A stretch of DNA of 36,421 nt from a virus. The stretch covers positions 1-36,421 of the IMG/VR virus record IMGVR_UViG_3300025164_000390, one strand, 5' to 3'. Of the stretch, positions 152-35,921 are shown piece after piece. The notes under the pieces were generated by a model that searched no databases, had not been told where the DNA came from, and was given only the letters and a program-made list of their open reading frames with translations. The translations under genes were made by a program, and so were the position numbers. The first letter of the stretch is position 1; the number at the start of each line of letters is the position of its first letter.

Positions 152-177
152 GGGACATAACGCGGATTGTTTTACCC
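152..177 (-). repeat. Bipartite dispersed element, copy 1
   Basis: On the - strand it reads GGGTAAAACAAT, five bases, then TTATGTCCC. It lies upstream of the small terminase gene, in the opposite direction to it. Confidence 0.75.
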
Positions 178-231
178 GTCAATTGTTCGCGTATTCATTG
201 CGATCGCAAGCAGTTTTCTCTTTTTCTTTAA

Positions 232-1014
232 ATGGCAGAAGCAATTGCAACCGTTTGGCAACTGTCGGATGAATTGAAAGCGGCGCTGGGTAGATTAAGC
301 CAGGCCCAGGCGCGCGCGGTCATTCGCATTGTCGAGGCCGAGGTCACGGGCCAGACGGTCGAGGCGCTGTTCTCGGGGAAGAACAAGATTTGCAATCGGG
401 CGACGTATTATCGCCCGCGCGGATGGAGCCACAAGCCGGCTTTCGTTTTGGCGCTCGACCTGGCGCGGCGCGAGGTGCGGGCACAGCGGATGTCGAGCAT
501 TGTCAACGAGGCGCTCGACGAGCTAAAGGCGGCGACGCCGCTGGCCGCGCAGGATTTGCGGCGGCAGATCGTGGGAGACGAAGCGGCGATTGATATGCTG
601 GCATCCATCGCGCGTGACCCGAAAAAGAAGGCCGATGAGCGCTTGATGGCTGTGACGAGCCTGGGCGTGATCGGGACGCAGCGCGCGACCGAGGCGCTGC
701 TGGCCGTGGCGAATGATAGTCATGCCGGGATTCGCCTGCGCGTGCTCGAGGTGATGGGCGTGTCGGCGGCGGGCATCAGCCCGCAGCGCCGGCGGGCAGC
801 GGTGGATGTGCTGGATCGCGCGGATGAGCTGACGGCGGATAAGGGCGGGCAGACCGATGACGAGCTTGACGCAGAGATTGAGCGGCGACTGGCACAGTTG
901 GCCCAGGGCGGCCAAGCTCAGGCTGCTGGATCGGCTGGAGCGCCCGCTGCCGAATCTGCTTCGGGACAAGATCCAGGCGGCGGCGCTGAGTACAGCGGCG
1001 CGGCTGACGCCTGA
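232..1014 (+). CDS. Putative terminase small subunit with HEAT-like repeats
   Basis: Likely recognises phage DNA and delivers it to the large terminase for packaging. The N-terminal third has a helix-turn-helix-like segment (about residues 15-70, with NRATYYRPRGW, a phage-terminase-like recognition motif). Residues about 105-185 form short alpha repeats of HEAT type (DERLMAVTSLGVIG, then ATEALLAV). The C-terminal tail is Ala/Gly/Gln-rich and low complexity. The assignment rests mainly on position just upstream of the large terminase, plus the HTH. The start has no Shine-Dalgarno and sits behind a T-rich leader, so a leaderless or different start is possible. The 3' end overlaps the next ORF by 158 bases and includes one GTAC hairpin. 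Confidence 0.6.
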   Translation: MAEAIATVWQLSDELKAALGRLSQAQARAVIRIVEAEVTGQTVEALFSGKNKICNRATYYRPRGWSHKPAFVLALDLARREVRAQRMSSIVNEALDELKAATPLAAQDLRRQIVGDEAAIDMLASIARDPKKKADERLMAVTSLGVIGTQRATEALLAVANDSHAGIRLRVLEVMGVSAAGISPQRRRAAVDVLDRADELTADKGGQTDDELDAEIERRLAQLAQGGQAQAAGSAGAPAAESASGQDPGGGAEYSGAADA

Positions 1015-1810
1015 TGTGGTGGCGGCGTATGCCGCACTGCACCTTACCAATGACGCGGGGAATCCCATCGAGCCGGCGGCGCATCACGCGCTGTGGCTGA
1101 GGCTGTTGTGCGATGAGCGGATCGGCAAGCTGCTGATCATTGCGCCGCCCGAGAGCGCCAAGACGACATGGGTCATTTCGGCGTTCGCGGGCTGTTACAT
1201 GGGGATGTGGCCGCAGCGGAGCGTGATCATCGGCAGCTCATCGGAGAGCGTGGCGGAGAAACGGTCGCTCTCGCTCAGGACGATGGCGCAGACGGCCGAG
1301 TGGCAGGCGACGTTTCCGGGGGTCGAGCGGGCGCGGGGGATGAAGTGGGATAGCGTGGAGTGGTCGCTGGCGCCGAACGGCTTGTCGACGCCGGGGCGAT
1401 TGCATCCGACGATCGCGGCGTATGGCACGGGCGGGAGCGTGACGGGCAGCCGGGCTGACCTGGTGATCGCGGATGACTTGCTGGATTTTGAGAACAGCCG
1501 GACGGCGCACCAGCGCGGCTTGGTGGAGCAGTGGCTGCACAATTCGCTGCTGACGCGGCGCAAGAGCCAGGTGGGGCGCGCAATCGTCATCGGGACGGCG
1601 TGGCATTGGGACGATATTTACAGTCACGCTCAGCAGGCGGGCGGCTGGGTGGTGTGCCACACAGCGCTGCTGTCCGAGTCGAATGAGGTGTATGCGACGC
1701 TGACGTGGCCGGATGATTGGGGGTATGAGGTGATGGGGACCTCTCCCCCGGCCCCTCTCCCGCCGCTGGGTACAGCGCCGCTGGGTACAGCGGCAGGCGA
1801 GGGGGGTTGA
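857..1810 (+). CDS. terL: Terminase large subunit, ATPase half
   Basis: Motor domain of the packaging terminase, which hydrolyses ATP to pump DNA into the procapsid. It shows a Walker A-type motif APPESAKTT (residues 96-104), Walker B LVIADDLLD (202-210) and a coupling motif GTAWHWDD (247-254) typical of phage terminases. The ORF stops at residue 317, just where the nuclease domain should begin. Its last 22 or so residues (SPPAPLPPLGTAPLGTAAGE...) are a translation of inserted repeats, not terminase sequence. The nuclease domain continues in another frame from 1812. The start at 857 overlaps the small terminase gene. Residues 10-60 still look protein-like, so it is kept, but a later start cannot be excluded. 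Confidence 0.85.
   Translation: MTSLTQRLSGDWHSWPRAAKLRLLDRLERPLPNLLRDKIQAAALSTAARLTPDVVAAYAALHLTNDAGNPIEPAAHHALWLRLLCDERIGKLLIIAPPESAKTTWVISAFAGCYMGMWPQRSVIIGSSSESVAEKRSLSLRTMAQTAEWQATFPGVERARGMKWDSVEWSLAPNGLSTPGRLHPTIAAYGTGGSVTGSRADLVIADDLLDFENSRTAHQRGLVEQWLHNSLLTRRKSQVGRAIVIGTAWHWDDIYSHAQQAGGWVVCHTALLSESNEVYATLTWPDDWGYEVMGTSPPAPLPPLGTAPLGTAAGEGG
984..997. repeat. GTAC hairpin CGCTGAGTACAGCG (single copy)
   Basis: Five-base-pair stem CGCTG/CAGCG with loop AGTA. It lies in the overlap of the small and large terminase genes and is translated in both frames. Confidence 0.75.
1741..1807. repeat. Composite repeat inserted in the terminase gene
   Basis: A CCTCTCCCCCGGCCCCTCTC-type element (1741-1760) is followed by two GTAC hairpins with GGTA loops (1764-1777 and 1779-1792) and a GGCGAGGGGGG tail that pairs back to the left arm. 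It lies between the ATPase and nuclease domains of TerL, ends the first ORF and shifts the reading frame. Confidence 0.75.
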
Positions 1811-1811
1811 C

Positions 1812-2627: not shown

Positions 2628-2654
2628 TAGGTAAAACAATGCCAGTTATGAGTC
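2628..2654 (+). repeat. Bipartite dispersed element, copy 2
   Basis: TAGGTAAAACAAT, five bases, TTATGAGTC. It lies between the terminase nuclease ORF and the portal gene. Confidence 0.75.
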
Positions 2655-2660
2655 ATCGCC

Positions 2661-5549: not shown

Positions 5550-5585
5550 AAATAGATTCACTCTGGAACACAAGGCAGGTGAAGT

Positions 5586-5768: not shown

Positions 5769-5794
5769 GGGTAACATAATCGCCCTTATGTGAC
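5769..5794 (+). repeat. Bipartite dispersed element, copy 3
   Basis: GGGTAACATAAT, five bases, TTATGTGAC. It includes a perfect inner dyad ACATAA-N6-TTATGT and lies directly before the four-copy GTAC hairpin array. Confidence 0.8.
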
Positions 5795-5795
5795 G

Positions 5796-5863
5796 CGCTG
5801 AGTACAGCGTGAGCGCTGAGTACAGCGTGAGCGCTGAGTACAGCGTGAGCGCTGAGTACAGCG
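5796..5863. repeat. Tandem array of four GTAC hairpins upstream of the scaffold gene
   Basis: Four copies of CGCTGAGTACAGCG at 5796, 5814, 5832 and 5850 with an 18-bp period (unit plus TGAG). The last copy ends one base before the GAGGAG ribosome-binding site of the scaffold gene, so an mRNA hairpin could form beside that site. Confidence 0.85.
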
Positions 5864-5876
5864 TGAGGAGATTGAA

Positions 5877-8083: not shown

Positions 8084-8680
8084 GTGAAGTTTCAATTGAC
8101 GAAAGAACAGATAAGCCAGATTATATCCATCGTGATCTCGGCGATCATTGCGCTGCTGGCGGTGTTTGGCTACGACGTGGGGATCATGCAGCCCCGGCTG
8201 GCGGCGCTGAGCGCGCCGGCGGCGGGCAGCCAAACGCTGACCAAGTTCGACGCGCTGCAGGTGAGCAAGCTAACGGTGGGGAGCGCGGCAACGTTTAGGG
8301 GTGGGAGCACCACAGCGATTGCGGGCGATGTGACGATGGCCGGGTACTTTACGCCGACGAATCTGGTGGCTACCAATGCGACGTTTGCTCTGCCGGTGGT
8401 TCTGAGCTCGGCGAGCATTACGCCGACAGACGGCGGGAGTCTTACGATCACGGCGGACCTGGTAACGTTGACGCCGGCGGGTGCGGTGGGGACTGACCTG
8501 GCTGCGTGCACAACGGGCAAGCGGGCAGTGTTGTATAACAGCATCGCAGCGAATGTGGTGATCACTGATACTGGGAATGGGGTACTGGCAGGCAACCAAA
8601 CTCTGGGCCAGTATGATACGCTGCAGCTGGCGTGCTTTGGGTCCAAGTGGGTTCAGGTTGGGCCGGTAAGTGCGAATTAG
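8084..8680 (+). CDS. Membrane-anchored beta-rich protein, unknown
   Basis: A 198-residue protein with a charged N-terminus, one hydrophobic helix at residues about 11-30 (IISIVISAIIALLAVFGYDVG) and a long Thr/Ala/Gly-rich beta region. The segment GVLAGNQTLGQYDTLQLACFGSKWVQV resembles short beta-barrel or fibre-tip domains that recur in phage virion proteins. Encoded between the major capsid and connector genes, it is probably a virion protein or host-surface-modifying factor. The helix could be a signal anchor. No precise family is recognised. Confidence 0.5.
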   Translation: MKFQLTKEQISQIISIVISAIIALLAVFGYDVGIMQPRLAALSAPAAGSQTLTKFDALQVSKLTVGSAATFRGGSTTAIAGDVTMAGYFTPTNLVATNATFALPVVLSSASITPTDGGSLTITADLVTLTPAGAVGTDLAACTTGKRAVLYNSIAANVVITDTGNGVLAGNQTLGQYDTLQLACFGSKWVQVGPVSAN

Positions 8681-9749: not shown

Positions 9750-9818
9750 GGGATTCTTCGCTGCGCTCAGAATGACAAGGCCGCCTCAGAATGACTAGGC
9801 CGCCTCAGAATGACTAGG
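9750..9818. repeat. ATTCTTCGC repeat, copy 3, with a tandem 19-bp unit
   Basis: GGATTCTTCGCTGCGCTCAG and AATGACA form the imperfect palindrome. It is followed by two exact tandem 19-bp units CCGCCTCAGAATGACTAGG at 9781 and 9800, then bipartite element copy 4. Confidence 0.75.
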
Positions 9819-9823
9819 CCGCG

Positions 9824-9851
9824 ATAGGTAAAACAAGATAGGTTATGTGAC
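9824..9851 (+). repeat. Bipartite dispersed element, copy 4
   Basis: ATAGGTAAAACAAG, five bases, TTATGTGAC. It lies between the head closure and gp10-like genes. Confidence 0.75.
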
Positions 9852-9880
9852 GCGGATTTGTCAATCCGCTGGAGCACAGC

Positions 9881-11687: not shown

Positions 11688-11815
11688 CGTTGAGTACAAC
11701 GACGGCGTTGGGTACAACGCACGTTGGGTACAACGCACGTTGGGTACAACGCACGTTGGGTACAACGCACGTTGGGTACAACGCACGTTGGGTACAACGC
11801 ACGTTGGGTACAACG
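11688..11815. repeat. Tandem array of eight GTAC hairpins downstream of the tail tube gene
   Basis: Eight copies of CGTTGRGTACAACG at 11688, 11706, 11722, 11738, 11754, 11770, 11786 and 11802. The last seven have an exact 16-bp period (CGTTGGGTACAACGCA). Compared with the CGCTG/CAGCG copies elsewhere, both stem arms have changed together (C to T and G to A), so pairing is kept. Confidence 0.9.
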
Positions 11816-11816
11816 C

Positions 11817-11839
11817 AGGGGCAGGGAGATCCTGCCCCT
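11817..11839. repeat. AGGGGCAGG...CCTGCCCCT hairpin
   Basis: 9-bp perfect stem with loop GAGAT, directly after the GTAC array and 13 bases before the tail chaperone start. Third member of the GGGGC/GCCCC hairpin family. Confidence 0.7.
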
Positions 11840-12462: not shown

Positions 12463-14421
12463 ATGTCCATCAAGGCGGGTGATGCGGTTCTGTATCTGGG
12501 GACGGACCGGAGCAAGCTGGAGGCGGGGCTGCGGGATGCGAAAGCATCGGTGAGCACGTGGGCGTCCGAGACGGCGGCGACGGTCGGGAATAAGATCACC
12601 GATGGGCTGAAGAAGGTGGCGGAGGTGGCGGCGGGGGCGCTGCTGGCCACGGGGGTAGCGGGCGCGGCGATCGGCGTGAAGGCGGTGCAGGCGGCGAGCG
12701 ACTTGAACGAGTCGGCGAGCAAGTCGGAGGTGGTGTTTGGGGAGTTCAATGACCGGATCGCGGAGTTTGCCAAAACCGCCGATTGGGCCTTTGGGCTGAC
12801 GAAGCAGCGAGCATTTGAAACGGCGGGGACGTTCGGCAATCTGTTTGTGAGCATGGGGCTGGGGAAAAAAGAGGCTGCCGGCATGTCCATTGACTTGATC
12901 AAGCTGGCGGGCGACCTGGCCTCGTTCAATAACCTCAAAATCGAGGACGTGCTGGAAAAGCTGCGGGCGGGTCTCATCGGCGAGGCCGAGCCGATGCGCT
13001 CAGTGGGCGTGCTGCTGAGCGAGGATACGATGAAGGCCAAGGCGCTGGCGCTGGGCCTGGGCGATCTGAAGGGCAACCTGACCGAGGGCGAAAAAGTCCA
13101 GGCACGTTACGCGATCATGCTCGAGCAAACGAAAACCGCGCAGGGTGATTTTGCGCGGACCTCGACCGGGCTGGCGAATAGCCAGCGCATCCTCAGCGCG
13201 GTATGGCAGAACACACTGACCGACCTGGGCCAGGTGTTGCTGCCGCGCGTGACGGGCGCGCTGCAAAATCTGATGCCGATTCTCCGCAAGGATATTGTCC
13301 CGATGCTCCAGGGCGGGTTTGTGAACCTGGATAAGTTCATTGACCAGGCAGGCACATCCACCAAGTTTTTCTTTGACGCGATCCGCGCGGGCACATCGCC
13401 GGTGAGCGCGCTTTCGATGGCGCTGAAGCAATTGCTGCCGCCTGAGATGGCGGGCCAGATTGACCAAATAAGAAACTTTATATTACCTATCGAGACGGGG
13501 GTGCGGAACCTGGTCGGCGCGATCATCGGGAGCGGGCCGGAGGTGAAGCGGGCGATCGAGAATATGGCGACGAGCGCGGGGAAGCTGACGTCGTACATCA
13601 GCCCGCAACTGGCCAAAAATATCGGCGATGCGCTCACTTCGATTGCGAATCTGTGGACGGCGCACAAGGGCGAGATCCTGGCAGTGGTGGAGATTGTGTG
13701 GAACGGCGTGGTGGCGACGATCGGAGGGGCGCTGACGCTGGCGAGCGGCGCGCTGAGCGCGGGCCTGAAGATTTTGGAGGGTGACTGGGGCGGCGCGTGG
13801 GAGACGATGAAGGGATCGTTTGATTCGTTCAACCGGATGGTGCTTTCGCTGGTGGGGACGACGCCTGAGCAGGCGAGCAAGGTGTGGGCGGATAACTGGG
13901 GGATGTTCAAGATCATCGTCAAGGAGGGATGGGACAAGCTGCAAGATATGGTCTCCACGTCGCTGGATCTGGCGACGAAGGACATTCAGAACTGGATCAT
14001 CGGGCTGGGCCAGAACGTGATGAAAATCAAGGACCTGGCGGTGGAGTTTTCGAAGGCGGGTTCGGCGCTGATCGAGGGACTGAAGGAAGGCATCAAGAAG
14101 AAGTTTGATGAGGTGATTGCATGGGTGTCGCAACTGATCGGGCAATTGCCGCTGGTGATCAAGAAGGCGCTGGGCATCAGCTCGCCTTCGGCGGTGTTTG
14201 CGGCGATTGGCCGGCAGAGCATGGAGGGGCTGACGCTGGGGCTGCAGCAGTCGGCGAGGCTGCCGCGCCTGGCGCTGGCGGCGGTGTCGGCGATGCCGAG
14301 CGAGTCGCGGGTGTATACGGATAACCGGCGGTTCAACATTGTGAATCAGGATGCGCTGGCGGCGCAGGCGCACCTGGCGTGGATCGAGCGGGAGCGCCGG
14401 CTGAATGATTGGATGGGATGA
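12463..14421 (+). CDS. Tape measure protein
   Basis: 652 residues from ATG 12463. It sets tail length and takes part in DNA ejection. It has the usual traits: long helical and Ala-rich regions, an N-terminal segment MSIKAGDAVLYLGTDRSKLE, a tape-measure core (AGALLATGVAGAAIGVKAVQ, SKSEVVFGEFNDRI, AFETAGTFGNLFVSMGLG) and the C-terminal KKALGISSPSAVFAAIGRQSMEGL, a signature of siphophage tape measures. At about 1.5 angstrom per residue it predicts a tail near 100 nm. One bipartite element (13463-13490) is embedded in frame. Confidence 0.9.
   Translation: MSIKAGDAVLYLGTDRSKLEAGLRDAKASVSTWASETAATVGNKITDGLKKVAEVAAGALLATGVAGAAIGVKAVQAASDLNESASKSEVVFGEFNDRIAEFAKTADWAFGLTKQRAFETAGTFGNLFVSMGLGKKEAAGMSIDLIKLAGDLASFNNLKIEDVLEKLRAGLIGEAEPMRSVGVLLSEDTMKAKALALGLGDLKGNLTEGEKVQARYAIMLEQTKTAQGDFARTSTGLANSQRILSAVWQNTLTDLGQVLLPRVTGALQNLMPILRKDIVPMLQGGFVNLDKFIDQAGTSTKFFFDAIRAGTSPVSALSMALKQLLPPEMAGQIDQIRNFILPIETGVRNLVGAIIGSGPEVKRAIENMATSAGKLTSYISPQLAKNIGDALTSIANLWTAHKGEILAVVEIVWNGVVATIGGALTLASGALSAGLKILEGDWGGAWETMKGSFDSFNRMVLSLVGTTPEQASKVWADNWGMFKIIVKEGWDKLQDMVSTSLDLATKDIQNWIIGLGQNVMKIKDLAVEFSKAGSALIEGLKEGIKKKFDEVIAWVSQLIGQLPLVIKKALGISSPSAVFAAIGRQSMEGLTLGLQQSARLPRLALAAVSAMPSESRVYTDNRRFNIVNQDALAAQAHLAWIERERRLNDWMG
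13463..13490 (-). repeat. Bipartite dispersed element, copy 5, inside the tape measure gene
   Basis: On the - strand ATAGGTAATATAAA, five bases, TTATTTGGTC. It keeps the spacing although the right arm is degenerate and the site is coding (IRNFILPIE). Confidence 0.65.
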
Positions 14422-15845: not shown

Positions 15846-17341
15846 GGCTGCCTTACGAGATCGTGATGGGGCCGCTGTTGACGGAGACGAGCGGATTGCA
15901 TACGATCGTGACGAAGCGATTCCCGACGTGGTCGCACACGAAGCGGCGGGTGGGCGGGGACTGGATGGGCGGCGGCGAGTTCGTGGGCAGCGCGCTGGAA
16001 AAGGTGTCGCTGTTCACGTATGGGCTCGGTCGCCGGATATGGGTCAACGTCGGGGCAAATCGAGTCTGGGACGGTTTCACCGGCGAGATGGAGCTGGACC
16101 TGGGCGGGACGGTGCTGCGGCGCAGCCTGATTGACGAATCGTTTGGGAATGCCGTGCAGGCGTATTTTACGCGCTCGATGGGCGAGAATCTGCTGGCGAA
16201 CGGCTCGGCGGAGCTGGGGGATACGGGGTGGGGTTTCATTACAGGCTGGCATCCCAACCGATCTGCGATCTGTCCAGATGGGCTGCCGGCCGATCAGACG
16301 CCGTGGGTGGCGCACGGGCAAAAGTCGTTTTGGATGGAGACAAAAACTGATAAAGCTGGCGGCAGGAAATTCACGTGCGGCAACCTGGTGGCGGGATCGA
16401 GCTACGAGGTCAATTGCATTCTCAAGTCATACGGCTGGTGGAGGGTCGAACTGCGGCGCAGTGATACGAACCAATCGCTGGGCGAGGCGGAGACGGATGG
16501 ATCGGACGCCGTTCACCACATTTCATTTTCTTTTTATAACGGCGACTTTAGCGGGGGAGTTTACTTGTGGATCTTTGGGCAGGAGGATTGCACGTGCTAC
16601 GTGGACGGGGCCGGCGTATATCGCAAGGGCTATCCCTCGATGACGGGGTGGCAGACCGAGGCGGATTCCATCTCGCGTTTCGGGCGGGTGGAAAAGATTT
16701 TGTCGCTGGGGGCGCTGGAGGACGCGGCGGTGCTGGCGCACGTTCAATCGGTGCTGCCCAAGATGGCGTGGGCGCGGCCCAAGCCACCCGACGAGTTATT
16801 TGCGCGCTCAACGGGCGAGCAGGAGAACAAGCAGATCAGGTTGACGGTGCGCGCGGTGGGGCGCGTGTGGACGATGGCCTGGCTGTACATGGCGATCAGC
16901 GGGACGGGGACGGTGTCGGACCGGCTGACGCAATTGGCGACGGGGATGCCGTATTTCAGCGTGGGGCACATCACGACGAACGCGACGGCGCTGAAGGTGT
17001 ACGACCAGGGGATCCCAGCGCGGCGCTGGGACGCGGCGGAGGCGGCGATCTCGATGGCGGACTCGAGCGGCAACTTTTATCGTGGGGGAGTTAATGCACG
17101 TTATTTTACCTATGATGCGCTGAGCACAATTGACTGCCCGCTGTTCGACCGCGGGCGGCTGCTGGAGCGGCCGGCGCGCCGGGAGGCGCACGCGCTGCTG
17201 GCGGAGCCGGGCTGGGTGGAGGTGTTTCGCTCGCCGATCTGGGGGGGCGGGCTTTCAGGCAAGACGGAGCTGGCGCTGATCAGCGAGGTTGGCTTTACGG
17301 CGCCGGATAAGCTGACGTTGAGGCGGGAGCAGTTGCAATGA
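15842..17341 (+). CDS. Tail tip/baseplate hub-like protein with a carbohydrate-binding insert
   Basis: 499 residues from GTG 15842 (GTGA overlap). The N-terminal strands (ETSGLHTIVTKRFPTWSH) and the C-terminal half (RLTVRAVGRVWTMAWLYMAI, EPGWVEVFRSPIWGGG) suit a tail-tip protein. Residues about 115-265 form an insert starting NLLANGSAELGDTGWGF, the usual opening of CBM4/9-type jelly-roll domains, with VYLWIFGQEDCTCYVDGAGVY as its closing strands. It may bind host surface sugars. A bipartite element lies in frame at 17086-17113. No enzyme motif is seen. Confidence 0.62.
   Translation: MRLPYEIVMGPLLTETSGLHTIVTKRFPTWSHTKRRVGGDWMGGGEFVGSALEKVSLFTYGLGRRIWVNVGANRVWDGFTGEMELDLGGTVLRRSLIDESFGNAVQAYFTRSMGENLLANGSAELGDTGWGFITGWHPNRSAICPDGLPADQTPWVAHGQKSFWMETKTDKAGGRKFTCGNLVAGSSYEVNCILKSYGWWRVELRRSDTNQSLGEAETDGSDAVHHISFSFYNGDFSGGVYLWIFGQEDCTCYVDGAGVYRKGYPSMTGWQTEADSISRFGRVEKILSLGALEDAAVLAHVQSVLPKMAWARPKPPDELFARSTGEQENKQIRLTVRAVGRVWTMAWLYMAISGTGTVSDRLTQLATGMPYFSVGHITTNATALKVYDQGIPARRWDAAEAAISMADSSGNFYRGGVNARYFTYDALSTIDCPLFDRGRLLERPARREAHALLAEPGWVEVFRSPIWGGGLSGKTELALISEVGFTAPDKLTLRREQLQ
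17086..17113 (-). repeat. Bipartite dispersed element, copy 6, inside the tail-tip gene
   Basis: On the - strand ATAGGTAAAATAAC, five bases, TTAACTCCC. It is coding (VNARYFTYDALS). Confidence 0.65.
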
Positions 17342-20040: not shown

Positions 20041-20074
20041 GGGGGAAGGGGGTAAGAGCTGCACTCACCCGCTT

Positions 20075-20100
20075 CTCATAACAACTATTATTTTACCTAT
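20075..20100 (-). repeat. Bipartite dispersed element, copy 7
   Basis: On the - strand ATAGGTAAAATAAT, five bases, TTATGAGAA. It abuts the AGGAG ribosome-binding site of the gene at 20112. Confidence 0.8.
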
Positions 20101-21407: not shown

Positions 21408-21427
21408 GTAAAACAATGGCTTTACCC
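21405..21427 (+). repeat. Bipartite dispersed element, half copy
   Basis: TAGGTAAAACAAT is intact and contains the start codon of the next gene (CAATGG). The right arm is reduced to TTACCC. Half sites also occur at 24385-24397. Confidence 0.6.
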
Positions 21428-23417: not shown

Positions 23418-24341
23418 TTATAGTCGCCAATGCTCGACCGGGGAGGCGAGGCGATGGGCGGCCTGCACATCGGTCTGGGCCAGGTCGAGATAGTGCCTGA
23501 CCATTTCCATTGTGGAATGGCCAAGTATCTTTTGCAGGGTGAACACGTCGCCGCCGTTGCGCAGATAGTTGATAGCGAAGGTGTGGCGAAAACGATGGAC
23601 ATGCGCGCCCTGGACGCCGGCGCGGTCGCCGATATCGGCGATCATGTGGGCCAGCTCGTCGCGGCGGAGTTGCTGGCCGGTGCGGGTGACCATCAGGTAA
23701 TCGCTGACGCGCGCCTGGGGGCGCGTGGAGAGGTAACGCCAGATCGCCTGGCCGGTGCGCGGGCCGATGGGGATCTGGCGTTCTTTGTCGCCCTTGCCCA
23801 TGACGACGATGTGGCGATTGTGCAGGTCAACTTGCTTGATGCGCAGCTCGCTCAGCTCGCTGGCGCGGATGCCGGTGTCAAGCAGGATCAGGATGATGGC
23901 ACGGTTGCGCGTGGCGTTGACGATGGTATGGTTGCACTCGCGCTTGCCGGTGCGAACGTAGGGGCGCGATTTGTCTATGGCGCGGAGGATGGCTTGCACA
24001 TCGGATTCGGTGTATGGGACAATAGCGCGTTCTTCCGGCTTGGGCGGCTCGACCTGGCGGACGACGTTGGCAGCGGCAAGGTTTTCACTCACAGCCCAGC
24101 GCCACAATGATGACAGGCCCGTGTGGTAGTTGAGCAGCGTTTTGTCCGAGACGGTTTGCTCGGCGAGGAAGGCGCGCACGTGGGCGGCGGTGACGTCGCA
24201 GATCGGCGGATCTGTTTTCAGGTGCGCAGTGAATTTGTTGAAGGTGGTGGAATAGTCGCGCAGTGTGTTTGAACTGAGACGGCGAGCCTGGGCATAGAGC
24301 AGGTAGCCTTGAATGGCTTGAGTGAACTTGATGCGATCCAT
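23418..24341 (-). CDS. int: Tyrosine integrase (XerC/D-like)
   Basis: 307 residues from ATG 24341, preceded on the - strand by GGAGGT; the longer frame adds 10 residues without a better site. It joins attP and attB DNA. The N-terminal core-binding domain (residues 1-95) includes LSSNTLRDYSTTFNKF. The catalytic domain shows R159 (TGIRASEL), K185 (GKGDKER), H249-x-x-R252 (HRFRHTF), H275 (LGHSTMEM) and Y284. All residues needed for activity are present. It lies directly next to the tRNA-derived attP-like site and reads away from it. Confidence 0.9.
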   Translation of the reverse strand: MDRIKFTQAIQGYLLYAQARRLSSNTLRDYSTTFNKFTAHLKTDPPICDVTAAHVRAFLAEQTVSDKTLLNYHTGLSSLWRWAVSENLAAANVVRQVEPPKPEERAIVPYTESDVQAILRAIDKSRPYVRTGKRECNHTIVNATRNRAIILILLDTGIRASELSELRIKQVDLHNRHIVVMGKGDKERQIPIGPRTGQAIWRYLSTRPQARVSDYLMVTRTGQQLRRDELAHMIADIGDRAGVQGAHVHRFRHTFAINYLRNGGDVFTLQKILGHSTMEMVRHYLDLAQTDVQAAHRLASPVEHWRL

Positions 24342-24384
24342 GTGACCTCCGGTTGATCGCCCCCAGAACACATAATTTGAAAAG

Positions 24385-24397
24385 CAGGTAAGATAAT
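24385..24397 (+). repeat. Bipartite element, left-arm half copy
   Basis: CAGGTAAGATAAT. The right arm is not seen. It lies in the integrase leader, between the gene and the tRNA-like core. Confidence 0.4.
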
Positions 24398-24511
24398 TGT
24401 GCGGGGGCTTTTTTTTGAGTCATCCGTGTGCTCTGCGGTTGGAGGTCCGCCAGACCGATGCCCACAGGGAATGGGGAATTGAGTGACCGTGTGGGCGTCG
24501 GTGATGGAAAG

Positions 24512-24553
24512 TGGGCGGTAGAGGGCTCGAACCTCCGGCCTCACGGATGTCAA
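24512..24553 (-). other. attP-like core: 3' half of a tRNA-Val(GAC)
   Basis: On the - strand it reads anticodon loop TTGACAT (anticodon GAC, 24551-24549), stem CCGTG, variable loop AGGCC, T arm GGAGG-TTCGAGC-CCTCT, and acceptor ACCGCCC plus A at 24512. The 5' half of the tRNA (acceptor GGGCGGT and D arm) is absent upstream, so it is not a working tRNA. This 3' half is the typical identity block used by phage integrases at tRNA genes. Confidence 0.75.
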
Positions 24554-24665: not shown

Positions 24666-24693
24666 ATAGGTAATATAATTTGTCTTATGTCCC
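24666..24693 (+). repeat. Bipartite dispersed element, copy 8 (best consensus)
   Basis: ATAGGTAATATAAT, five bases, TTATGTCCC. It lies just past the 3' end of the Excalibur gene. Confidence 0.85.
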
Positions 24694-24698
24694 TATGG

Positions 24699-27112: not shown

Positions 27113-27379
27113 ATGACGCCGATGATCAGCCTGATGGGTTTCGTGTTGTTGGTGTGCGCGGCATTGGTGCTCAGGATCGCCGTCGAGGCGGCCTGGGCGC
27201 TTTTTGATTACAGCCTCTGGCTCAGTGCGCCTTATCCTCGCACGCGGGATGTGTTGGCCGACCAGGTGCGATCCAGGCGCGGGCGCGGCTGGCGCTGGGT
27301 GATGTGGGCTGGGTTGTTTGTCCTGGCCTTTTTGGGATCTGAATTTCTGGCGATGGCGCTATGGACGACGTTCAATTAG
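27113..27379 (+). CDS. Membrane protein with two helices
   Basis: 88 residues. Hydrophobic segments at about 3-25 (ISLMGFVLLVCAALVLRIAV) and 64-85 (WVMWAGLFVLAFLGSEFLAMAL) with a basic loop between them (RSRRGRGWR). The size and two-helix layout resemble class II holins, although it is far from any lysis gene. It begins one base after the previous stop and overlaps the start of the second recombinase by 19 bases. Confidence 0.55.
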   Translation: MTPMISLMGFVLLVCAALVLRIAVEAAWALFDYSLWLSAPYPRTRDVLADQVRSRRGRGWRWVMWAGLFVLAFLGSEFLAMALWTTFN

Positions 27380-28692
27380 GCTCTGAGATTGCTTCGTCGC
27401 AAAAGGCGCTCCTCGCAATGACAGGGCGGCCTGGAACGCAGGTATGGCGGGTCGTGGACGCCGGACCCGAGCCGACAACGAGTGACTTGATCGTCGAGTG
27501 GGGGCGGGTGACGGTGATGTGGCTGGACGGGCGGCGTCCGAACAGCCAAAAGTCGTACTTTCAGGCATGGTGCGAGTTCTTTGGGCGCGGGGTGGACCTG
27601 GGCGCGATCAAGGATCGGATGGAACGCATCCGCGAGATCTTGACTTGCACCTCGCCAATGGATAAGCGCACGTGGCTCAAGCCGTGGAGCGCGACGTCGT
27701 CGGATGCGGAGGCGTGGAAGTTTGAGCTGCGCAACACCGTGATCGCGACGGGCAAGGCGCACGGGGGCGCGGCGCTTTCGGATGCGACGGTGGGCTTGAA
27801 GCTGGCGGCGATGTCATCGTTCTACCAGTTCGCGTGCAAGTTTCCGATCCGGAGGCCGGACGGCTCCGAGGCTCCGCTGTGCGCATTCAATCCCTTTATG
27901 ATCGTCGAGCGTCCTAATGTTGATGCGTTCGACAAGGCGAGATGGCTCACGCCGGAGCAGGTCAAGGCATTCTTATCGGTCATTCCCACGGATACGCTGG
28001 GCGGGCTGCGCGATTGGGCGCTGATGCTGTTTTACGCGACGACCGGTCGCCGCAACAGCGAGGTGCGCCTGCTGCAACGCAAGCATTTTGAGCCGCAGGA
28101 CGATGGGCGGGTGTTTATCCGGCTTGAGGCCGAGATGTGCAAGGGCAAGCGCGGGCAGATGTACGAGCTGCCCGGCGAGGTGTGGACGGCGACGTGCGAG
28201 TATTTGAAGGCGGTGGGGCGGCCCTTCGAAGCGCTCAAGCCGGACGATTACGTCTTTACGGCGCTTTCCAACTGCGTGACCCGGCTGCGGAAGTCGGACG
28301 GGAGCGCGCTGGTGCAGGCGGGGGCGTATCGCTCGAGCGGGTCGCCGCTTTCGGCAAAAGAGATCGGGCGGCTGGTGAAAAAGTACGCGGTGCGCGCGCG
28401 GATCGGCGTGGTGACGATCGAGCGTGTAGACGAGCGCGGGAAGAAGCACACGCGGACGACGAGCACGGTCAAGCCGCACATGCTGCGCCATTCGTATGGT
28501 CGGGCGATGGTGGACGCGGGCGCTCAACTGCCGGTGATCAGCAAATCCATGGGGCACGCTTCGCTGGACATGACCAAGCGGTACACGGACAAGCTCAAGG
28601 AGCGGGAGCAGACCGAGTTCGACGAGCGGGTGATTGACCTCTTTGGCGTGCGCGGGCTGGTGAAAAAGCGCCACAAGCGGTTGGGGACATAA
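27361..28692 (+). CDS. Second tyrosine recombinase
   Basis: 443 residues. The catalytic set is complete: R231 (TTGRRNSE), K261 or K263 (CKGKRG), H373-x-x-R376 (HMLRHSYG), H399 (SMGHASLDM) and Y408. The core-binding domain spans residues about 45-165. It is larger than the integrase at 23418 and unrelated beyond the family fold. Residues about 9-21 (EIASSQKALLAMT) are a translation of a GATTGCTTCG...GCAATGACA repeat, so the true start may be later (for example ATG 27418 or GTG 27508). Its role could be dimer resolution, an inversion switch or a second integration module. The stop codon lies in bipartite element copy 9. Confidence 0.82.
   Translation: MDDVQLGSEIASSQKALLAMTGRPGTQVWRVVDAGPEPTTSDLIVEWGRVTVMWLDGRRPNSQKSYFQAWCEFFGRGVDLGAIKDRMERIREILTCTSPMDKRTWLKPWSATSSDAEAWKFELRNTVIATGKAHGGAALSDATVGLKLAAMSSFYQFACKFPIRRPDGSEAPLCAFNPFMIVERPNVDAFDKARWLTPEQVKAFLSVIPTDTLGGLRDWALMLFYATTGRRNSEVRLLQRKHFEPQDDGRVFIRLEAEMCKGKRGQMYELPGEVWTATCEYLKAVGRPFEALKPDDYVFTALSNCVTRLRKSDGSALVQAGAYRSSGSPLSAKEIGRLVKKYAVRARIGVVTIERVDERGKKHTRTTSTVKPHMLRHSYGRAMVDAGAQLPVISKSMGHASLDMTKRYTDKLKEREQTEFDERVIDLFGVRGLVKKRHKRLGT
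27385..27423. repeat. GATTGCTTCG...GCAATGACA repeat fused to the recombinase start
   Basis: Imperfect inverted repeat with ATTGC/GCAAT arms, related to the ATTCTTCGC family. It is translated in frame at the N-terminus of the second recombinase. Confidence 0.7.
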
Positions 28693-28711
28693 ATCAAATT
28701 ATGTTACCTAT
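28684..28711 (-). repeat. Bipartite dispersed element, copy 9
   Basis: On the - strand ATAGGTAACATAAT, five bases, TTATGTCCCC, with a perfect ACATAA-N6-TTATGT dyad. It contains the TAA stop of the second recombinase. Confidence 0.85.
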
Positions 28712-28717: not shown

Positions 28718-28746
28718 AGAGATGCTTCGCTTCGCTCAGCATGACA
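28718..28746. repeat. ATTCTTCGC-type repeat, copy 4 (GATGC variant)
   Basis: AGATGCTTCGCTTCGCTCAG followed by CATGACA. Both arms carry the same change (ATTCT to ATGCT and AGAAT to AGCAT), so pairing is kept. Confidence 0.65.
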
Positions 28747-31396: not shown

Positions 31397-31576
31397 ATGG
31401 AGAATCCAACTGCGACTGTTCTATGGCAACGTGGTATACGCCTACAGGTCATTCAGGATCAACTCGACGCGGAGAGAATTACAAAAGAAGAAGCACTCGA
31501 ACTCTTGGCGCTACCGTTGTCGCCTGGAAAAGGCGATCCGATAGATGATTCGCAATTATTGATTGTTCGCCAATGA
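31397..31576 (+). CDS. Small protein, 59 residues
   Basis: ATG 31397 with AGGA 7 bases upstream, stop TGA shared with the ATG of the helicase frame (ATGA at 31573). It begins MENPTATVLWQRGIRLQV and has a helix (AERITKEEALELLAL). Compact position and frame suggest a real gene. No function is inferred. Confidence 0.58.
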   Translation: MENPTATVLWQRGIRLQVIQDQLDAERITKEEALELLALPLSPGKGDPIDDSQLLIVRQ

Positions 31577-33105
31577 CTGGATTCTCGCCTTCGCGGGACA
31601 TAAACAGGATTACTTTACCTATGCCGAACCAGGTCAAGCAGGGTCTTGAAGTGGTTGTCATGGCGCCACATAGCATCGAGGCGGAGGAGTCGGTGCTTGG
31701 GTCGGTGTTGATTGATCCGGCGGTGCTGCGCGACGTAGGCAAGATGCTGAGTGTGTCTGACTTTTTCATCATCAAGAATGGCTGGGTATTTGACGCGATG
31801 CTGGACATTGCAGCGGGTGGCGAGCCGGTGGATTTTCTAACGCTGTGCAACAAGCTGGAGATGCGCGGCCAACTGGCCGAGGTGGGCGGGGCGGCGTACA
31901 TCAGCCACTTGATCAATGTGGTGCCGACGGCGATCCACGCGGATGGATACGCGCGGATCGTCAAGGAAAAGTCGGTGCGCCGGCGGGGACTGGGCCTGGC
32001 TTCGGACCTGGCGGAGCGGATGTATGACGAGACGGCTTCTCCCTTCATCGGGCTGGACCACTTTCACAACCGGGCCAAAGCAATGCGAGTGAGTGAGGCG
32101 GCGCGGATGGGCGGGGAGATCCCGGTCATTTCGGCGGATGAGATTTTGAGGGCCGAGTATCCAGCGCCGTACCTTGCCGTGGAGGGGATGCTGACGAGCG
32201 GGATGGCGATGCTGGGGGCGAAGGCGAAGCAGCACAAATCGTGGATGGCGCTGCAATTGTTGTGCGCGATCTCGTCGCCGAGCGGGTATTTCATGGGCCG
32301 GAAGCTGGAGCACGGGCGGGTGCTGTACGTGACGCTCGAGCTGACGCTGCGGGAATTGAAGAATCGGATGACGGCGCAAAGCTGGCCGGGCCAGTTGCCG
32401 TTCGACGTGATCACGCCCGAGACGTATCAGGAACGCCTCGGGGATATTTCCAGGTCGGGAGCGGACACGCTGTGCAAGTTGATGCTGGATAGTGATTACC
32501 GCATGGCGGTGATCGACCCGTTCAACCTGGCGATGGCGTATGGCAACACGGATATGTATGACCTGGTGGCGATGACGGAGGCGATGGCGCGGCTGCAGCG
32601 CTTTGGGGTGGAGCACGACCGGGTGATCCTGTTCGTGGTGCATTATCCGAAGGAATTGCGCGAGGCGCACGATCCATTTGCGGACATGATGGGCACGATC
32701 GGGATCGGGAACTCGGCGGGGACGGCGTGGGGCATTTACCGCGAGCGCGGCCAGCAGATGGCGGAAATGGTTATCTCGGGCCGGAATCTGCCGGAGGAGT
32801 TGTGCCTGGCGGTGCGGTTCGACCGGCAGACGTGCACGTGGGTGTACGAGGGCAAGGCGACGGACCTGGTGATGACGGAGCAGCGGGTGGAGATCTTGCG
32901 GGTGCTGGCGCTGAATGGGCCGCAGACGCACAAGCAGATCGCGGAGCTGGTGGGGCAGAACGGGGGGAACGTGTCCCGGCGCATCAGCGACTTGATGCGC
33001 GAGGAGATGATCGAGGAGGTCACCAGCGGGACACGCAGGCAATTTAATCTGACAGACGATGGCAAGCTCAGGCTGGAGGAGTTTGACCGGAGCAATCGAA
33101 AGTAG
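31573..33105 (+). CDS. Replicative helicase chimera: DnaB N-domain, RecA-like ATPase, winged helix
   Basis: 510 residues. Residues about 31-130 are the DnaB N-terminal domain (PHSIEAEESVLGSVLIDPAV, EVGGAAYISHLINVVPTA). The central ATPase is of the RepA/AAA_25 type, with a degenerate Walker A GAKAKQHKS (215-223) and Walker B MAVIDPF (311-317), and includes VLYVTLELTLRELKNRM. The last 75 residues form a winged helix (LALNGPQTHKQIAELVGQNG). It probably unwinds the phage origin, which lies just downstream. The start is uncertain: ATG 31573, 31621 or 31660. A bipartite element overlaps the first of these regions. Confidence 0.78.
   Translation: MTGFSPSRDINRITLPMPNQVKQGLEVVVMAPHSIEAEESVLGSVLIDPAVLRDVGKMLSVSDFFIIKNGWVFDAMLDIAAGGEPVDFLTLCNKLEMRGQLAEVGGAAYISHLINVVPTAIHADGYARIVKEKSVRRRGLGLASDLAERMYDETASPFIGLDHFHNRAKAMRVSEAARMGGEIPVISADEILRAEYPAPYLAVEGMLTSGMAMLGAKAKQHKSWMALQLLCAISSPSGYFMGRKLEHGRVLYVTLELTLRELKNRMTAQSWPGQLPFDVITPETYQERLGDISRSGADTLCKLMLDSDYRMAVIDPFNLAMAYGNTDMYDLVAMTEAMARLQRFGVEHDRVILFVVHYPKELREAHDPFADMMGTIGIGNSAGTAWGIYRERGQQMAEMVISGRNLPEELCLAVRFDRQTCTWVYEGKATDLVMTEQRVEILRVLALNGPQTHKQIAELVGQNGGNVSRRISDLMREEMIEEVTSGTRRQFNLTDDGKLRLEEFDRSNRK
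31595..31622 (-). repeat. Bipartite dispersed element, copy 10
   Basis: On the - strand ATAGGTAAAGTAAT, five bases, TTATGTCCC. It lies at the helicase start, where its CTAT end overlaps the ATG 31621 candidate. Confidence 0.85.
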
Positions 33106-33502: not shown

Positions 33503-33571
33503 TGATGCGGATTGTACCCATTTTAACCGATCTACAACTCGATCTACAACAGGGTACAACAGGGTACAACA
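33455..33571 (-). repeat. Inverted iterons (CTACAACA/GTACAACA)
   Basis: CCTACAACA twice in tandem (33455 and 33464), then CGATCTACAACT/A (33528 and 33540) and GGGTACAACA twice (33552 and 33562). They are complementary to the 33367-33425 units, including the TGTTGTACCC variant. Confidence 0.78.
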
Positions 33572-33645
33572 ATATAACTGGATTAGGAATTGTAAAGTTA
33601 TTAGAGGCAAGCAAAACGGATGAGTAGGAAGATACGGAGGTATAA

Positions 33646-33897: not shown

Positions 33898-33918
33898 GCA
33901 GATGAGGTAACAGTCCAC

Positions 33919-34137
33919 GTGAGTATTGAACGTCGTACAACGAATCCAGGCAGGCGCGAACGAGAGGCTGGAAAACGCCATAGGCGTGCCCGTTACTGGG
34001 ATTCCAGGATGGGAGCGGGGGCGACACCGTTGAAGCTCGGGCGCAAACACGCTGGTCGTCACGCTGGTCGTTGGTTCAAGAAAAGTCTGGCTGTGGCCGA
34101 TGCGCTGATTACAGCGGATGCGCTGAGTACAGCGTAG
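33919..34137 (+). CDS. Small basic protein with a repeat-coded C-terminus
   Basis: 72 residues from GTG 33919, Arg/Lys-rich. Its last 12 residues (ADALITADALSTA) translate two GTAC hairpins. GAGG lies about 10 bases upstream. The repeat-derived end lowers confidence that the full frame is functional. Confidence 0.38.
   Translation: MSIERRTTNPGRREREAGKRHRRARYWDSRMGAGATPLKLGRKHAGRHAGRWFKKSLAVADALITADALSTA
34103..34134. repeat. Two GTAC hairpins
   Basis: CGCTGATTACAGCG (34103-34116, loop variant ATTA) and CGCTGAGTACAGCG (34121-34134). They lie at the end of the small basic gene and before the HerA-like gene. Confidence 0.75.
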
Positions 34138-34150
34138 GGCCGAAACGCCG

Positions 34151-34192
34151 GGGGGGAGCGTGCGCTGGAGTGTCGCTCGTAGGTCTCCCCCC
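34151..34192. other. G/C stem upstream of the HerA-like gene
   Basis: 8-bp stem GGGGGGAG/CTCCCCCC with a 26-base loop in the leader of the gene at 34218. It could influence translation; weak evidence. Confidence 0.3.
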
Positions 34193-34217
34193 ACGCTTGC
34201 TGCATGTAGGTTAGATT

Positions 34218-35921
34218 ATGGTTAAATCGCAGACGTTCAGCATTGGCAAAGTGGCGGATTCGGGTGCTGTGCCACTCCGGGTTGACTTGCCGCGCCTGGT
34301 GGATACGCGGATGCTGATCCAGGCGAACAGCGGCGGCGGCAAGAGTTGGCTGCTGCGCCTGATGGCCGAGCAGGTGGCCGACAAGGTGCAGATCATTCTG
34401 CTGGACCCGGAGGGGGAGTTTGCGACGCTGCGCGAAAAGATTGACATCGCGCTGGTGGGCCAGGGCGGGGAGATCGCTGCGGACGTGCGATCGGCCGCGC
34501 TGCTGGCACGCAAGGTGATCGAGAAGCGCATCTCGGTGATCGTGGACTTGTACGATTTGAAGCTGCCTGACCGGCGGCGGTACGTGCGGCTGTTTCTGGA
34601 GGCGTTGATGAGCGTGCCGCGCGCGCAATGGCACCAGGTGCTCGTCATCCTGGACGAGGCGCACATCTTTGCGCCTGAAAAGTCGGCCGGGGAGTCGGAG
34701 GCGACGAGCGCCGTGATCTCGCTGATGTCGCAGGGGCGCAAGCGAGGTTTCGCGGGGATTATCTCGACGCAGCGGCTGAGCAAGCTGCACAAGGACGTGG
34801 CGGCGGAGACGAATAATGTGGTCATCGGGCGCACGTGGCTGGACGTGGATCAGCAGCGGGCGGGGGATCTGCTGGGGATGAACAAGGCGGATCGGCAGGC
34901 ATTGCGGGACCTGGCGCCGGGCGAGTTTTTTGCGTTCGGGCCGTCGCTGAGCGTGGCGGGCGTGGTTCGATTCAGGTCTGATCAGGTGGCGACGACGCAC
35001 CCGAAGGCGGGCGAACGGCACACGATGGAAGTGCCGGAATCGTCGGCGGCAATTCGGGAGATTGTGGCGCAGATCGGCGACTTGCCGAAGCAGGCCGCGG
35101 AGGAGGCGCATACGCTGGCGGACGCTCAGCGCAGGATCGCAGAGCTGGAGCGGCAGATCAGGGCGCGGCCCATCCAGGTGGAACAGAAGGTTGAGACGCG
35201 CGTGGAGCGAGTAGAGGTTCCCGTGCTGAAGAATGACGAGGCGGGCAAGCTGCTGAATACGGCGCGGGATCTGTCCGAGCTGGGCGCTCAACTGGCGTCT
35301 CTCTCGTCCGAGATCCGGAAGGCGGTAGACGACGCGGCGCGGATGAGGACGATGCCGGTGCGTGCGATTGCGACGGTGGCGCCGCCTCGAGCGGCCGGCG
35401 GCGCGGCGCGCCTTCGACCGGCGAGCGAGGCAGGGGAGATAAGAGATATTATATTACGCTCCGGCGAGCGCAAGATGCTGCAGGCATTGGCAGCACGTTA
35501 TCCGGCCCGGTATACGCGCTCGCAGTTGGGGACGCTGGCAGGTTTCACGCCGAGCGGGGGGACGTTCGGGAATTATTTTGGAACGCTGAAGCGGATGGAG
35601 TTCCTCGTCGAAGCGGGGCGGGACGTGGAGATCACGCAGGCGGGGCTGGATTACCTGGGCGCGGACGTGCCGCCGAGGCCGGAGACGACGGGCGAGCTGT
35701 TGGCGATGTGGAAGGGGGCGCTGCGTGAGGGGGAGCGCAAGATGCTCGACGAGCTCGTGGAGGTATACCCAGATGGGCTATCGTTCGAGGAGTTGGGGGA
35801 GCGGACGGGGTTCACGGCGAGCGGGGGCACGTTCGGGAATTACCTGGGGACGCTGAGGCGGAACGGGCTGGTCGAGACGAGCGGCCGGCAGGCGAAGGCC
35901 AGCGCGACGCTGTTTGTTTAG
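34218..35921 (+). CDS. HerA-like ATPase with duplicated C-terminal winged helix
   Basis: 567 residues. The ATPase domain has Walker A NSGGGKS (37-43), the DPEGEF motif (63-68) typical of HerA/FtsK-like pumps, Walker B VILDEAHIF (143-151) and the sensor ISTQRL. A coiled-coil segment (about 300-335) precedes two copies of a wHTH unit: GERKMLQALAARYPARYTRS near residue 419 and GERKMLDELVEVYPDGLSFE near residue 505, each ending in SGGTFGNY(F/L)GTL. HerA proteins move DNA with nucleases or in defence complexes; the partner here is not evident. A bipartite element is embedded in frame near residue 410. Confidence 0.75.
   Translation: MVKSQTFSIGKVADSGAVPLRVDLPRLVDTRMLIQANSGGGKSWLLRLMAEQVADKVQIILLDPEGEFATLREKIDIALVGQGGEIAADVRSAALLARKVIEKRISVIVDLYDLKLPDRRRYVRLFLEALMSVPRAQWHQVLVILDEAHIFAPEKSAGESEATSAVISLMSQGRKRGFAGIISTQRLSKLHKDVAAETNNVVIGRTWLDVDQQRAGDLLGMNKADRQALRDLAPGEFFAFGPSLSVAGVVRFRSDQVATTHPKAGERHTMEVPESSAAIREIVAQIGDLPKQAAEEAHTLADAQRRIAELERQIRARPIQVEQKVETRVERVEVPVLKNDEAGKLLNTARDLSELGAQLASLSSEIRKAVDDAARMRTMPVRAIATVAPPRAAGGAARLRPASEAGEIRDIILRSGERKMLQALAARYPARYTRSQLGTLAGFTPSGGTFGNYFGTLKRMEFLVEAGRDVEITQAGLDYLGADVPPRPETTGELLAMWKGALREGERKMLDELVEVYPDGLSFEELGERTGFTASGGTFGNYLGTLRRNGLVETSGRQAKASATLFV
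35432..35456 (-). repeat. Bipartite dispersed element, copy 11, inside the HerA-like gene
   Basis: On the - strand GCGTAATATAAT, five bases, TTATCTCCC. In frame, encoding EIRDIILRS. Confidence 0.65.

Follow-up and report, generated by a model that had tools for sequence, protein, structure and literature searches.

What do eleven copies of a short element do along one phage contig, and which protein would bind them? We address this question for the 36,421-base virus contig IMGVR_UViG_3300025164_000390, which was analysed over its whole length and is called the window below; both of its ends are open, and the right end cuts a ParB gene. A preliminary description of this contig reported a bipartite element and attributed it to a dimeric DNA-binding protein, for example ParB or a stoperator-like repressor, with a host-derived mobile repeat as the main alternative. 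That account included neither the even spacing of the copies nor their resemblance to dif, the bacterial XerC/XerD site. We find that the element is dif-like (Xer-type), with an 11-bp XerC arm, a variable 6-bp centre, and an 11-bp XerD arm, and the window is reasonably likely to carry an evenly spaced array of eleven predicted binding sites for an Xer-type recombinase. Dif sites themselves are already known; what is new is their regular multi-copy arrangement. (Papers given by PMC number are cited for parts of their text.)

An eleven-copy element with dif-like architecture

We placed the copies in a common register of 28 bp (11-6-11) and give the strand as running from the XerC arm to the XerD arm, which is opposite to the strand used in the preliminary description (Table 1). 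All 11 full copies that it listed are present, four on one strand and seven on the other as it said; seven of its positions are exact, and four are off by 1–2 bases (2628 is 2627, 5769 is 5767, 20075 is 20073, and 35432 is 35434). The two perfect dyads that it gave (ACATAA-N6-TTATGT, at 5769 and 28684) are also present. The linker, described as an invariant 5 bases, is really 6 bases long, and the "T" of ATAAT falls in the variable centre.

A profile built from the 11 copies, as the preliminary description had proposed, scores 31.7–43.7 bits on them (22.2–40.8 bits in leave-one-out), far above the best non-overlapping other matches in the window (12.0 bits at 15608, 9.6 at 8106, and 7.9 at 21404). 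With the profile in the dif register, the true sites score 30.9–40.7 bits, and 100 first-order Markov simulations of the window reached at most 17.0 bits. Two weak copies were left out of the eleven, namely 8102 (9.6 bits; as 8104, rank 10 of the dif matrix introduced below) and 15608 (12.0 bits). A motif-free search of all gapped 4-mer pairs is topped in the window by GTAA-N11-TTAT, with 11 copies versus 0.21 expected. If a strict string with up to three mismatches is used instead, 5 of the 11 copies are found (0.00 expected, from 100 shuffles), and finding the others takes the profile.

According to a gene list made by hand, three of the 11 copies are wholly intragenic, one is partly so, and seven are intergenic, which agrees with the preliminary remark that some copies sit in genes. 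(That list starts the DnaB gene at 31654; the longer open reading frame [ORF] start at 31573 would make the copy at 31595 intragenic too.) Along the window, the orientations are + - - - + + + - + + + (7 and 4) and do not alternate. The listed flanks have nothing in common beyond about 28 bp, save for small repeats beside four of the copies. These repeats (CCTCAGAATGACnnGG / CCTCAGAATGACnnGGCnGC, and AGATGCTTCGCTTCGCTCAGCATGACA) occur at 127–150, 2586–2628, 9764–9823, and 28720–28746; they lie 2–10 bases from the four dif-like sites, and three of them are 2–3 bp from an arm. In Acinetobacter, dif sites are known targets, at 5 bp, of insertion sequence (IS) elements (PMC10132070).

In the window consensus, the XerC-type arm ends GGGACATAA, the XerD-type arm is TTATnTTACCT, and the arms face each other. 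To score the resemblance independently of the window, we took 31 of the 48 dif 28-mers from Proteobacteria in PMC2731167 Table 1 and made a dif matrix of them, with the central six columns zeroed. The window copies take ranks 1–8, 12, 14, and 15 by this matrix, so that all 11 fall within the top 15. The best window match scores 23.7 bits versus 12.7 bits in the reversed window sequence, and the best matches in 12 relatives without an array score 6.2–14.2 bits. Information content across the window sites is 15.8 bits in the XerD-type arm, 11.0 bits in the XerC-type arm, and 1.6 bits in the centre. The inner XerC-side ATAA is present in 10 of the 11 copies (the other has TTAA), the inner XerD-side sequence is TTAT in seven, TTGT in three, and TTAC in one, and all 11 have an adenine at dif position 25. 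In the dif sites of PMC2731167, likewise, the XerD arm is the better conserved one, the inner parts are the most conserved, and position 25 is highly conserved. The window sites thus resemble bacterial dif in their 28-bp length, 11-6-11 layout, inner ATAA/TTAT, better conserved XerD arm, A at position 25, and variable centre, and their consensus is identical to Escherichia coli dif at 7 of 11 XerC-arm bases and 8 of 11 XerD-arm bases. They are unlike it in their outer arms (the XerD arm ends in CCT, not AAT) and in number, as dif is single and near the terminus whereas the window has eleven copies.

Table 1. Dif-like sites of the window, isolated arms, and genes for candidate binders. Strand of sites is from XerC arm to XerD arm.
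Feature	Position	Strand	XerC-type arm	Centre	XerD-type arm	Context	Rank by dif matrix
Dif-like site 1	150..177	+	TAGGGACATAA	CGCGGA	TTGTTTTACCC	intergenic	15
Dif-like site 2	2629..2656	-	ATGACTCATAA	CTGGCA	TTGTTTTACCT	intergenic, TerL/portal gap	7
Dif-like site 3	5769..5796	-	GCGTCACATAA	GGGCGA	TTATGTTACCC	intergenic, before scaffold gene	2
Dif-like site 4	9826..9853	-	GCGTCACATAA	CCTATC	TTGTTTTACCT	intergenic	5
Dif-like site 5	13461..13488	+	TGACCAAATAA	GAAACT	TTATATTACCT	within tape measure gene	6
Dif-like site 6	17084..17111	+	GGGGGAGTTAA	TGCACG	TTATTTTACCT	within ORF 15842-17341	14
Dif-like site 7	20071..20098	+	GCTTCTCATAA	CAACTA	TTATTTTACCT	intergenic, just before ORF 20112	3
Dif-like site 8	24668..24695	-	TAGGGACATAA	GACAAA	TTATATTACCT	intergenic	4
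Dif-like site 9	28682..28709	+	TGGGGACATAA	ATCAAA	TTATGTTACCT	overlaps 3' end of 443-aa integrase gene	1
Dif-like site 10	31593..31620	+	GCGGGACATAA	ACAGGA	TTACTTTACCT	near start of DnaB-like helicase ORF	12
Dif-like site 11	35432..35459	+	AGGGGAGATAA	GAGATA	TTATATTACGC	within HerA-like gene	8
Isolated XerD-type arm	24386..24396	-			TTATCTTACCT	45 bp upstream of integrase ATG	
Weaker second arm	24365-24375	-			TTATGTGTTCT	orientation as TTATCTTACCT	
Xer-type tyrosine recombinase	23418..24341	-				307 amino acids (aa); candidate binder, perhaps ordinary integrase	
Second tyrosine recombinase	27361..28692	+				443 aa, PF00589; candidate binder	
ParB_N protein	36187..36420	+				cut by record end; candidate binder in the preliminary description	

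Even spacing, related arrays, and differing centres

The intervals between neighbouring window copies are 2475–4593 bases (mean 3528, coefficient of variation [CV] 0.18), and random placement gives spacing as regular as this with P about 1e-6 to 2.5e-6. When sets of 11 were drawn from the list of gene starts, 0 of 400,000 were as regular. Adding the weak copy at 8102 gives P = 2.4e-5, and adding the half copies described below as well gives P = 3.5e-4. The eight copies that are not wholly intragenic are irregular if taken alone (CV 0.59, P = 0.10), so the three intragenic copies keep up the rhythm. That intragenic copies maintain the regular spacing points strongly to selection on distance. 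We know of no other family of phage sites with even spacing.

Diverged arrays are present in other phage contigs of 50–65% GC: G052, the overlapping and nearly identical pair G040 and G041 (loci L155 and L156), G028 (locus L143), and the fragments L298 and L215. Relatives of the window came from a portal search (5 loci) and an alignment search (48 loci, many of them short fragments), and three of these 48 portal relatives carry arrays (G028, G040, and G041). G028 is syntenic with the window (72% and 64% identity for the two TerL parts, 47% for the portal, and 49% for the major capsid protein); the window profile matches it at 24.9, 17.7, and 17.3 bits, and it has five full copies of a diverged form. 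(A half copy at 4562, a window-profile match at 8874, and the top dif-matrix match at 5557 were left out. A block of reverse-strand ORFs lies between two of its copies.) G040 and G041 were noticed via a palindrome count that was topped by ATAA-N6-TTAT, and they have seven copies in all. A motif-free gapped-word search of 16 sequences is topped in G040 and G041 by ATAA-N5-ATTA (log10 P = -9.7 and -9.6) and gave no dif-like top word in the 12 relatives without an array. Two other loci, L126 and L145, have one weak window-profile match each (14.9 and 15.4 bits).

The G040 form, used as a search pattern, matched 11 stretches, including G052 and the near-identical overlapping contig G054. G052 has seven copies, and the 401 bases at its end match the 401 at its start at 93% identity, so its genome is probably circular or terminally redundant and about 26.9 kb long. 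A dif-like pattern scan that returned at least 120 stretches found the GC-rich fragments L298 (three copies) and L215 (four, one of them mismatched; one-mismatch cores at 1680, 6649, and 7631 were left out), and both look like further arrays. For G049, which has three cores, the iterated profile drifted and gave no usable profile. AT-rich contigs with several ATAA-N6-TTAT cores (L072, L045, L037, L320, and others) were judged to reflect chance or sequence shared among near kin. A looser pattern gave 98 stretches in viral contigs, with one match each among the matches listed; the loci inspected were all at most 50.3% GC, and these too were judged chance. As probes, the first TerL half found no relatives, and the window portal had 0 matches among 50,697 annotated phage records.

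The seven G052 copies are 2993–4830 bases apart (CV 0.16, P = 1.7e-4; as a 26,895-bp circle, CV 0.14, P = 2e-5), and the seven copies of G040/G041 have a CV of 0.17 (P = 3e-4). Three genomes, with the window, are regular; the fragments L298 (P = 0.047) and L215 (P = 0.056) are too short to say, and G028 is not regular. By the dif matrix, the G052 copies are the top seven matches, the G040 copies rank 1–4 and 12, and those of G028 rank 2, 3, 4, 7, and 11. Because dif-like patterns were what led to G052, L298, and L215, their dif match is not independent evidence; that of the window is, and that of G028 and G040/G041 is in part, given some selection by motif among the 48 portal relatives.

The centres differ within each array. 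Pairs of centres that are identical at five or more of the six bases number 0 of 55 in the window (where the maximum is four), 0 of 21 in G052, 0 of 10 in G028, and 2 of 21 in G040/G041. In PMC13141974, the pdif sites that recombined had spacers that were identical or matched at 5/6 bases. Under that rule, most window copies should not recombine with one another, and each could recombine with its own twin on another copy of the genome.

Did the copies arrive by insertion? The test covered two intragenic copies of G040, in TerL and in the portal. Six homologues align to the TerL copy without gaps. For the portal copy, the residue count is 11 in G040, 12 and 13 in two homologues, 7–9 in six (the window included), and 7 in four others; a 28-bp insertion would add at least 9 residues, so these length differences are too small for an insert. 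There is no sign of insertion at either copy, and the alignments favour an origin by point changes.

Candidate binders and gene content

On the dif-like reading, the two tyrosine recombinases of the window are candidate binders, along with host XerC/XerD. The 307-aa protein keeps the catalytic R, K, HxxR, H, and Y by alignment to XerA. (The ATG start was picked because of its ribosome-binding site; the ORF itself begins with a GTG at 24371.) In the 443-aa protein, HxxR, H, and Y are kept by alignment, and R and K by eye. Both half copies of the preliminary description (21405 and 24385) are genuine 11-bp matches to AGGTAANAYAA, of which simulations give 0.017 per genome (60 runs). The arm at 24385 and the weaker second arm form a direct repeat 24–55 bp upstream of the 307-aa recombinase ATG. 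Similarly, G052 has a full site (10907) 67–100 bp upstream of a gene for a 301-aa Xer-like protein, which has GD for GH.

Two features of this region were seen by eye. At 24354–24419 on the + strand, a GC-rich hairpin followed by a T run is terminator-like, and its loop holds both isolated XerD-type arms. On the - strand at about 24500–24540, upstream of the Xer-like integrase, is a stretch that resembles a tRNA 3' end (GGTTCGAGCC ... CCGCCCAC) and is probably attP, so that it could point to the host; ARAGORN and Rfam found no RNA there. Its position suggests that the 307-aa recombinase is an ordinary integrase. The other half copy, at 21405, doubles as a ribosome-binding-site-like stretch before the ATG at 21416.

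The window and G052 are the array phages whose integrase region is covered, and each has two tyrosine recombinases. In a PF00589 search of 27 records, 15 matched, with two recombinases in the window, in G052/G054, and in G007; none was found in the five array records G028, G040, G041, L298, and L215, all of which are fragments. The second recombinase of G052 (locus L208; 13090–14328) has an extra stretch at 13848–14116, between the halves of its catalytic domain, that is partly SPSPQSGEGLGVG. It is perhaps an inserted small repeat, and it contains a dif-like site (13900).

As for the rest of the window, 90% of the sequence is coding by the hand-made list, and PHROG and Pfam matches identify TerL, portal, head and tail proteins, a tape measure, an integrase, a DnaB-like helicase, a HerA-like ATPase, and a ParB_N protein. 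TerL is encoded by two adjacent ORFs (857–2597), each matching a consecutive part of one profile; in the locus L024, the two parts are ~3 kb apart. The DnaB-like helicase (31573–33105) has a C-terminal winged-helix domain (HTH_24), a fusion that we know from nowhere else. A large ORF 3' of the tail genes (21416–22822) has internal repeats of 135/204 nt. Rfam and ARAGORN found nothing on the window. Tandem palindromic repeats occur at 11690–11833 (a 16-bp unit, CGTTGGGTACAACGCA, about seven units) and at 5795–5866 (an 18-bp unit, GCGCTGAGTACAGCGTGA, four units), where they adjoin a dif-like site, with a degenerate copy at 34102–34137. Possible roles for them are a centromere, iterons of an origin, or a further operator array.

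Competing explanations and possible roles of the array

Several results weigh against an evenly spaced array of Xer-type sites. The spacing of the G028 copies is not significant (CV 0.48, P = 0.11), and its dif-like word (log10 P = -6.0) is within the background of the top words of the 12 relatives (-6.0 to -7.6). The regularity of G052 weakens to P = 0.004 if we include 15168 (an exact ATAA-N6-TTAT core whose arms do not match) and to P = 0.005 with four weaker profile matches (2670, 8814, 16029, and 21512; 26.5–31.4 bits by the iterated profile, and rank 13 or outside the top 16 by the dif matrix); these five were left out of the counts above. By the dif matrix, three window copies (ranks 12, 14, and 15) score 9.0–10.0 bits, which is in the range of background best matches. 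The seven G052 copies (8.9–11.4 bits; the top of the reversed sequence is 8.8) are in that range too, one G040 copy scores 2.6 bits, and rank 1 in G028 is not an array sequence. The XerD-type arm of G052 and G040 departs from TTATGTTA, and their arms are near-symmetric. The centres differ at the level expected by chance, so they give no sign of selection for difference. Finally, only two array phages cover an integrase region, G007 has two tyrosine recombinases and no array, and integrases that share 55% and 49% identity with the 307-aa recombinase occur in G007 and G030, neither of which showed an array (for G030, one core and one control match over the whole record). Given these close integrases, the Xer-like integrase of the window may be an ordinary integrase rather than the binder.

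If ParB were the binder, as the preliminary description suggested, the copies would be dispersed parS-like sites: phage ParB clamps would spread from sites every 2–4 kb to form a genome-wide coat for partition or silencing, like KorB on RK2. Even spacing would suit uniform coverage. The KorB operators resemble the window sites in number and palindromic form. The window encodes a ParB_N protein. In G052, which is the most complete of the array phages, ParA is encoded along with a long protein that PHROGs, and weakly (below the cut-off) Pfam, identify as ParB-like; the two ParB proteins both match PHROG 4715. We nevertheless consider this explanation unlikely. The dif match would be a coincidence, and the tandem palindromic repeats look more like a centromere or origin than the dispersed copies do. 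ParB_N matches (E up to 0.01) occur in 11 of 41 records, eight of them above the Pfam cut-off, and these include the array-less relatives G002, G007, G014, G015, and G020, all above the cut-off. The same search, with PF02195, found none in the array records G028, G040, G041, G052, and G054 (all but G052 are clear fragments). ParA is in 3 of 27 records (G052, G054, and G042) and was not found in the window, a fragment record; the G052 ParB-like protein, as a query, found only itself. The KorB operators are like the window sites in being one protein's sites across one replicon, some of them kilobases from promoters; they differ in lacking similarity to dif, and KorB is a ParB-family clamp (PMC11790492). 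Overall, a dimeric protein at dispersed sites, the general part of the preliminary proposal, agrees with conservation confined to 28 bp, with other phages' versions of the site, and with the absence of insertion at the two alignable copies of G040, and ParB fits worse as that protein than an Xer-type recombinase does.

An unrelated dimeric repressor could instead block transcription at the sites and keep the prophage silent. Dispersed, phage-specific sites can do this: the stoperators of cluster A mycobacteriophages are genome-wide, mostly away from promoters, and diverge in motif between phages (PMC6550527), as do the arrays described here. The seven intergenic copies, several of which are just before gene starts, would also suit such operators. 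Against this, stoperators are asymmetric 13–14 bp sites, mainly in one orientation, with 20–30 per genome, while the window has 28-bp dyads in mixed orientation though its structural genes run one way. With the even spacing and the specific dif match added, we rate stoperator-like operators as rather improbable; the dispersed and phage-specific part of that earlier suggestion stands, and the dyad symmetry, orientation, and spacing do not fit it. With its multiple dif-like sites, whose centres differ, on a single replicon, the window also recalls the dif modules of Acinetobacter plasmids, where XerC/XerD would swap cassettes at the same 28-bp 11-6-11 sites; for example, 6 + 5 pdif sites are listed for the 22.8 kb of pALWED2.3 (PMC6449649). 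The window, a tailed phage, differs in its non-alternating orientations, its even spacing, and its sites in core genes (some in the middle of structural genes), and in its lack of centres identical at 5 of 6 bases, though such pairs exist in G040/G041. The two intragenic sites without insertion also count against this explanation, which we regard as improbable.

A host-derived small mobile repeat, scattered over the phage, is the explanation that we find hardest to credit. The small repeats within 2–10 bases of four of the 11 copies speak for it, and CCTCAGAATGACnnGG and AGATGCTTCGCTTCGCTCAGCATGACA may be of a type carried by Chloroflexota, the host guessed in the preliminary description. Conservation ends at 28 bp, the copies are evenly spaced, and no insertion is seen at the two alignable intragenic copies. 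One scan of genome_contigs with an exact pattern gave 13 stretches with one match each, none of them in a record titled Chloroflexota, and no stretch had multiple matches. The 918-kb megaplasmid of Thermomicrobium roseum, a possible Chloroflexota yardstick (its taxonomy line reads Thermomicrobiota), has one ATAA-N6-TTATG match.

Returning to predicted Xer-type sites, we propose that an Xer-family tyrosine recombinase would bind as a dimer, with its two subunits on the XerC-type and XerD-type arms. Either the XerC/XerD pair of the host or an Xer-like recombinase of the phage (the 307-aa or the 443-aa protein) may be the binder. The differing centres would bar strand exchange between most copies, which would leave evenly placed bound sites along the prophage or the replicating genome. 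Bound dimers every 2–4 kb may then act as transcription roadblocks, or as anchors that organise the DNA into loops, in the manner of MrpR or stoperators, and crossover may be confined to the same site on two (sister) genome copies. If the sites are indeed dif-like in identity, silencing or organisation is a plausible role, at somewhat under an even chance; same-site recombination, for multimer resolution or block exchange, is less likely, and other functions make up the rest.

There are precedents for parts of this proposal. In the SPbeta prophage, MrpR gave ten ChAP-seq peaks, all within SPbeta, at promoter regions with a 15-bp motif (SPBRE), so a protein with a tyrosine recombinase fold can act as a prophage repressor (PMC10516654). 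MrpR has lost recombinase residues; the window recombinases keep theirs, the window sites are not 15-bp promoter motifs, and their binder is a prediction. Filamentous phages carry dif-like attachment sites on their genomes (PMC3025954). Those are single sites for integration, in which the centre is often longer and the XerD arm degenerate, unlike the many copies, 6-bp centres, and conserved XerD arm of the window. A literature search for multi-copy or regularly spaced dif-like phage sites, covering the top results and mostly papers outside subscription, found no array in a tailed phage.

The broadest form of the proposal, which we hold only tentatively, is that temperate tailed phages can organise their genomes in a previously undescribed way. 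Dif-like sites would form a regular ring, with one site every 2–4 kb and a private centre in each, and an Xer protein would bridge all of the sites and cross over only between copies of the same site. If this is true, the ring would split the genome into blocks or loops that can be exchanged, and would guard it against self-deletion. The question that the arrays pose is whether the binder silences, loops, or recombines the phage genome; found in several phage contigs, the arrays would be a new setting for multi-copy Xer-type sites.

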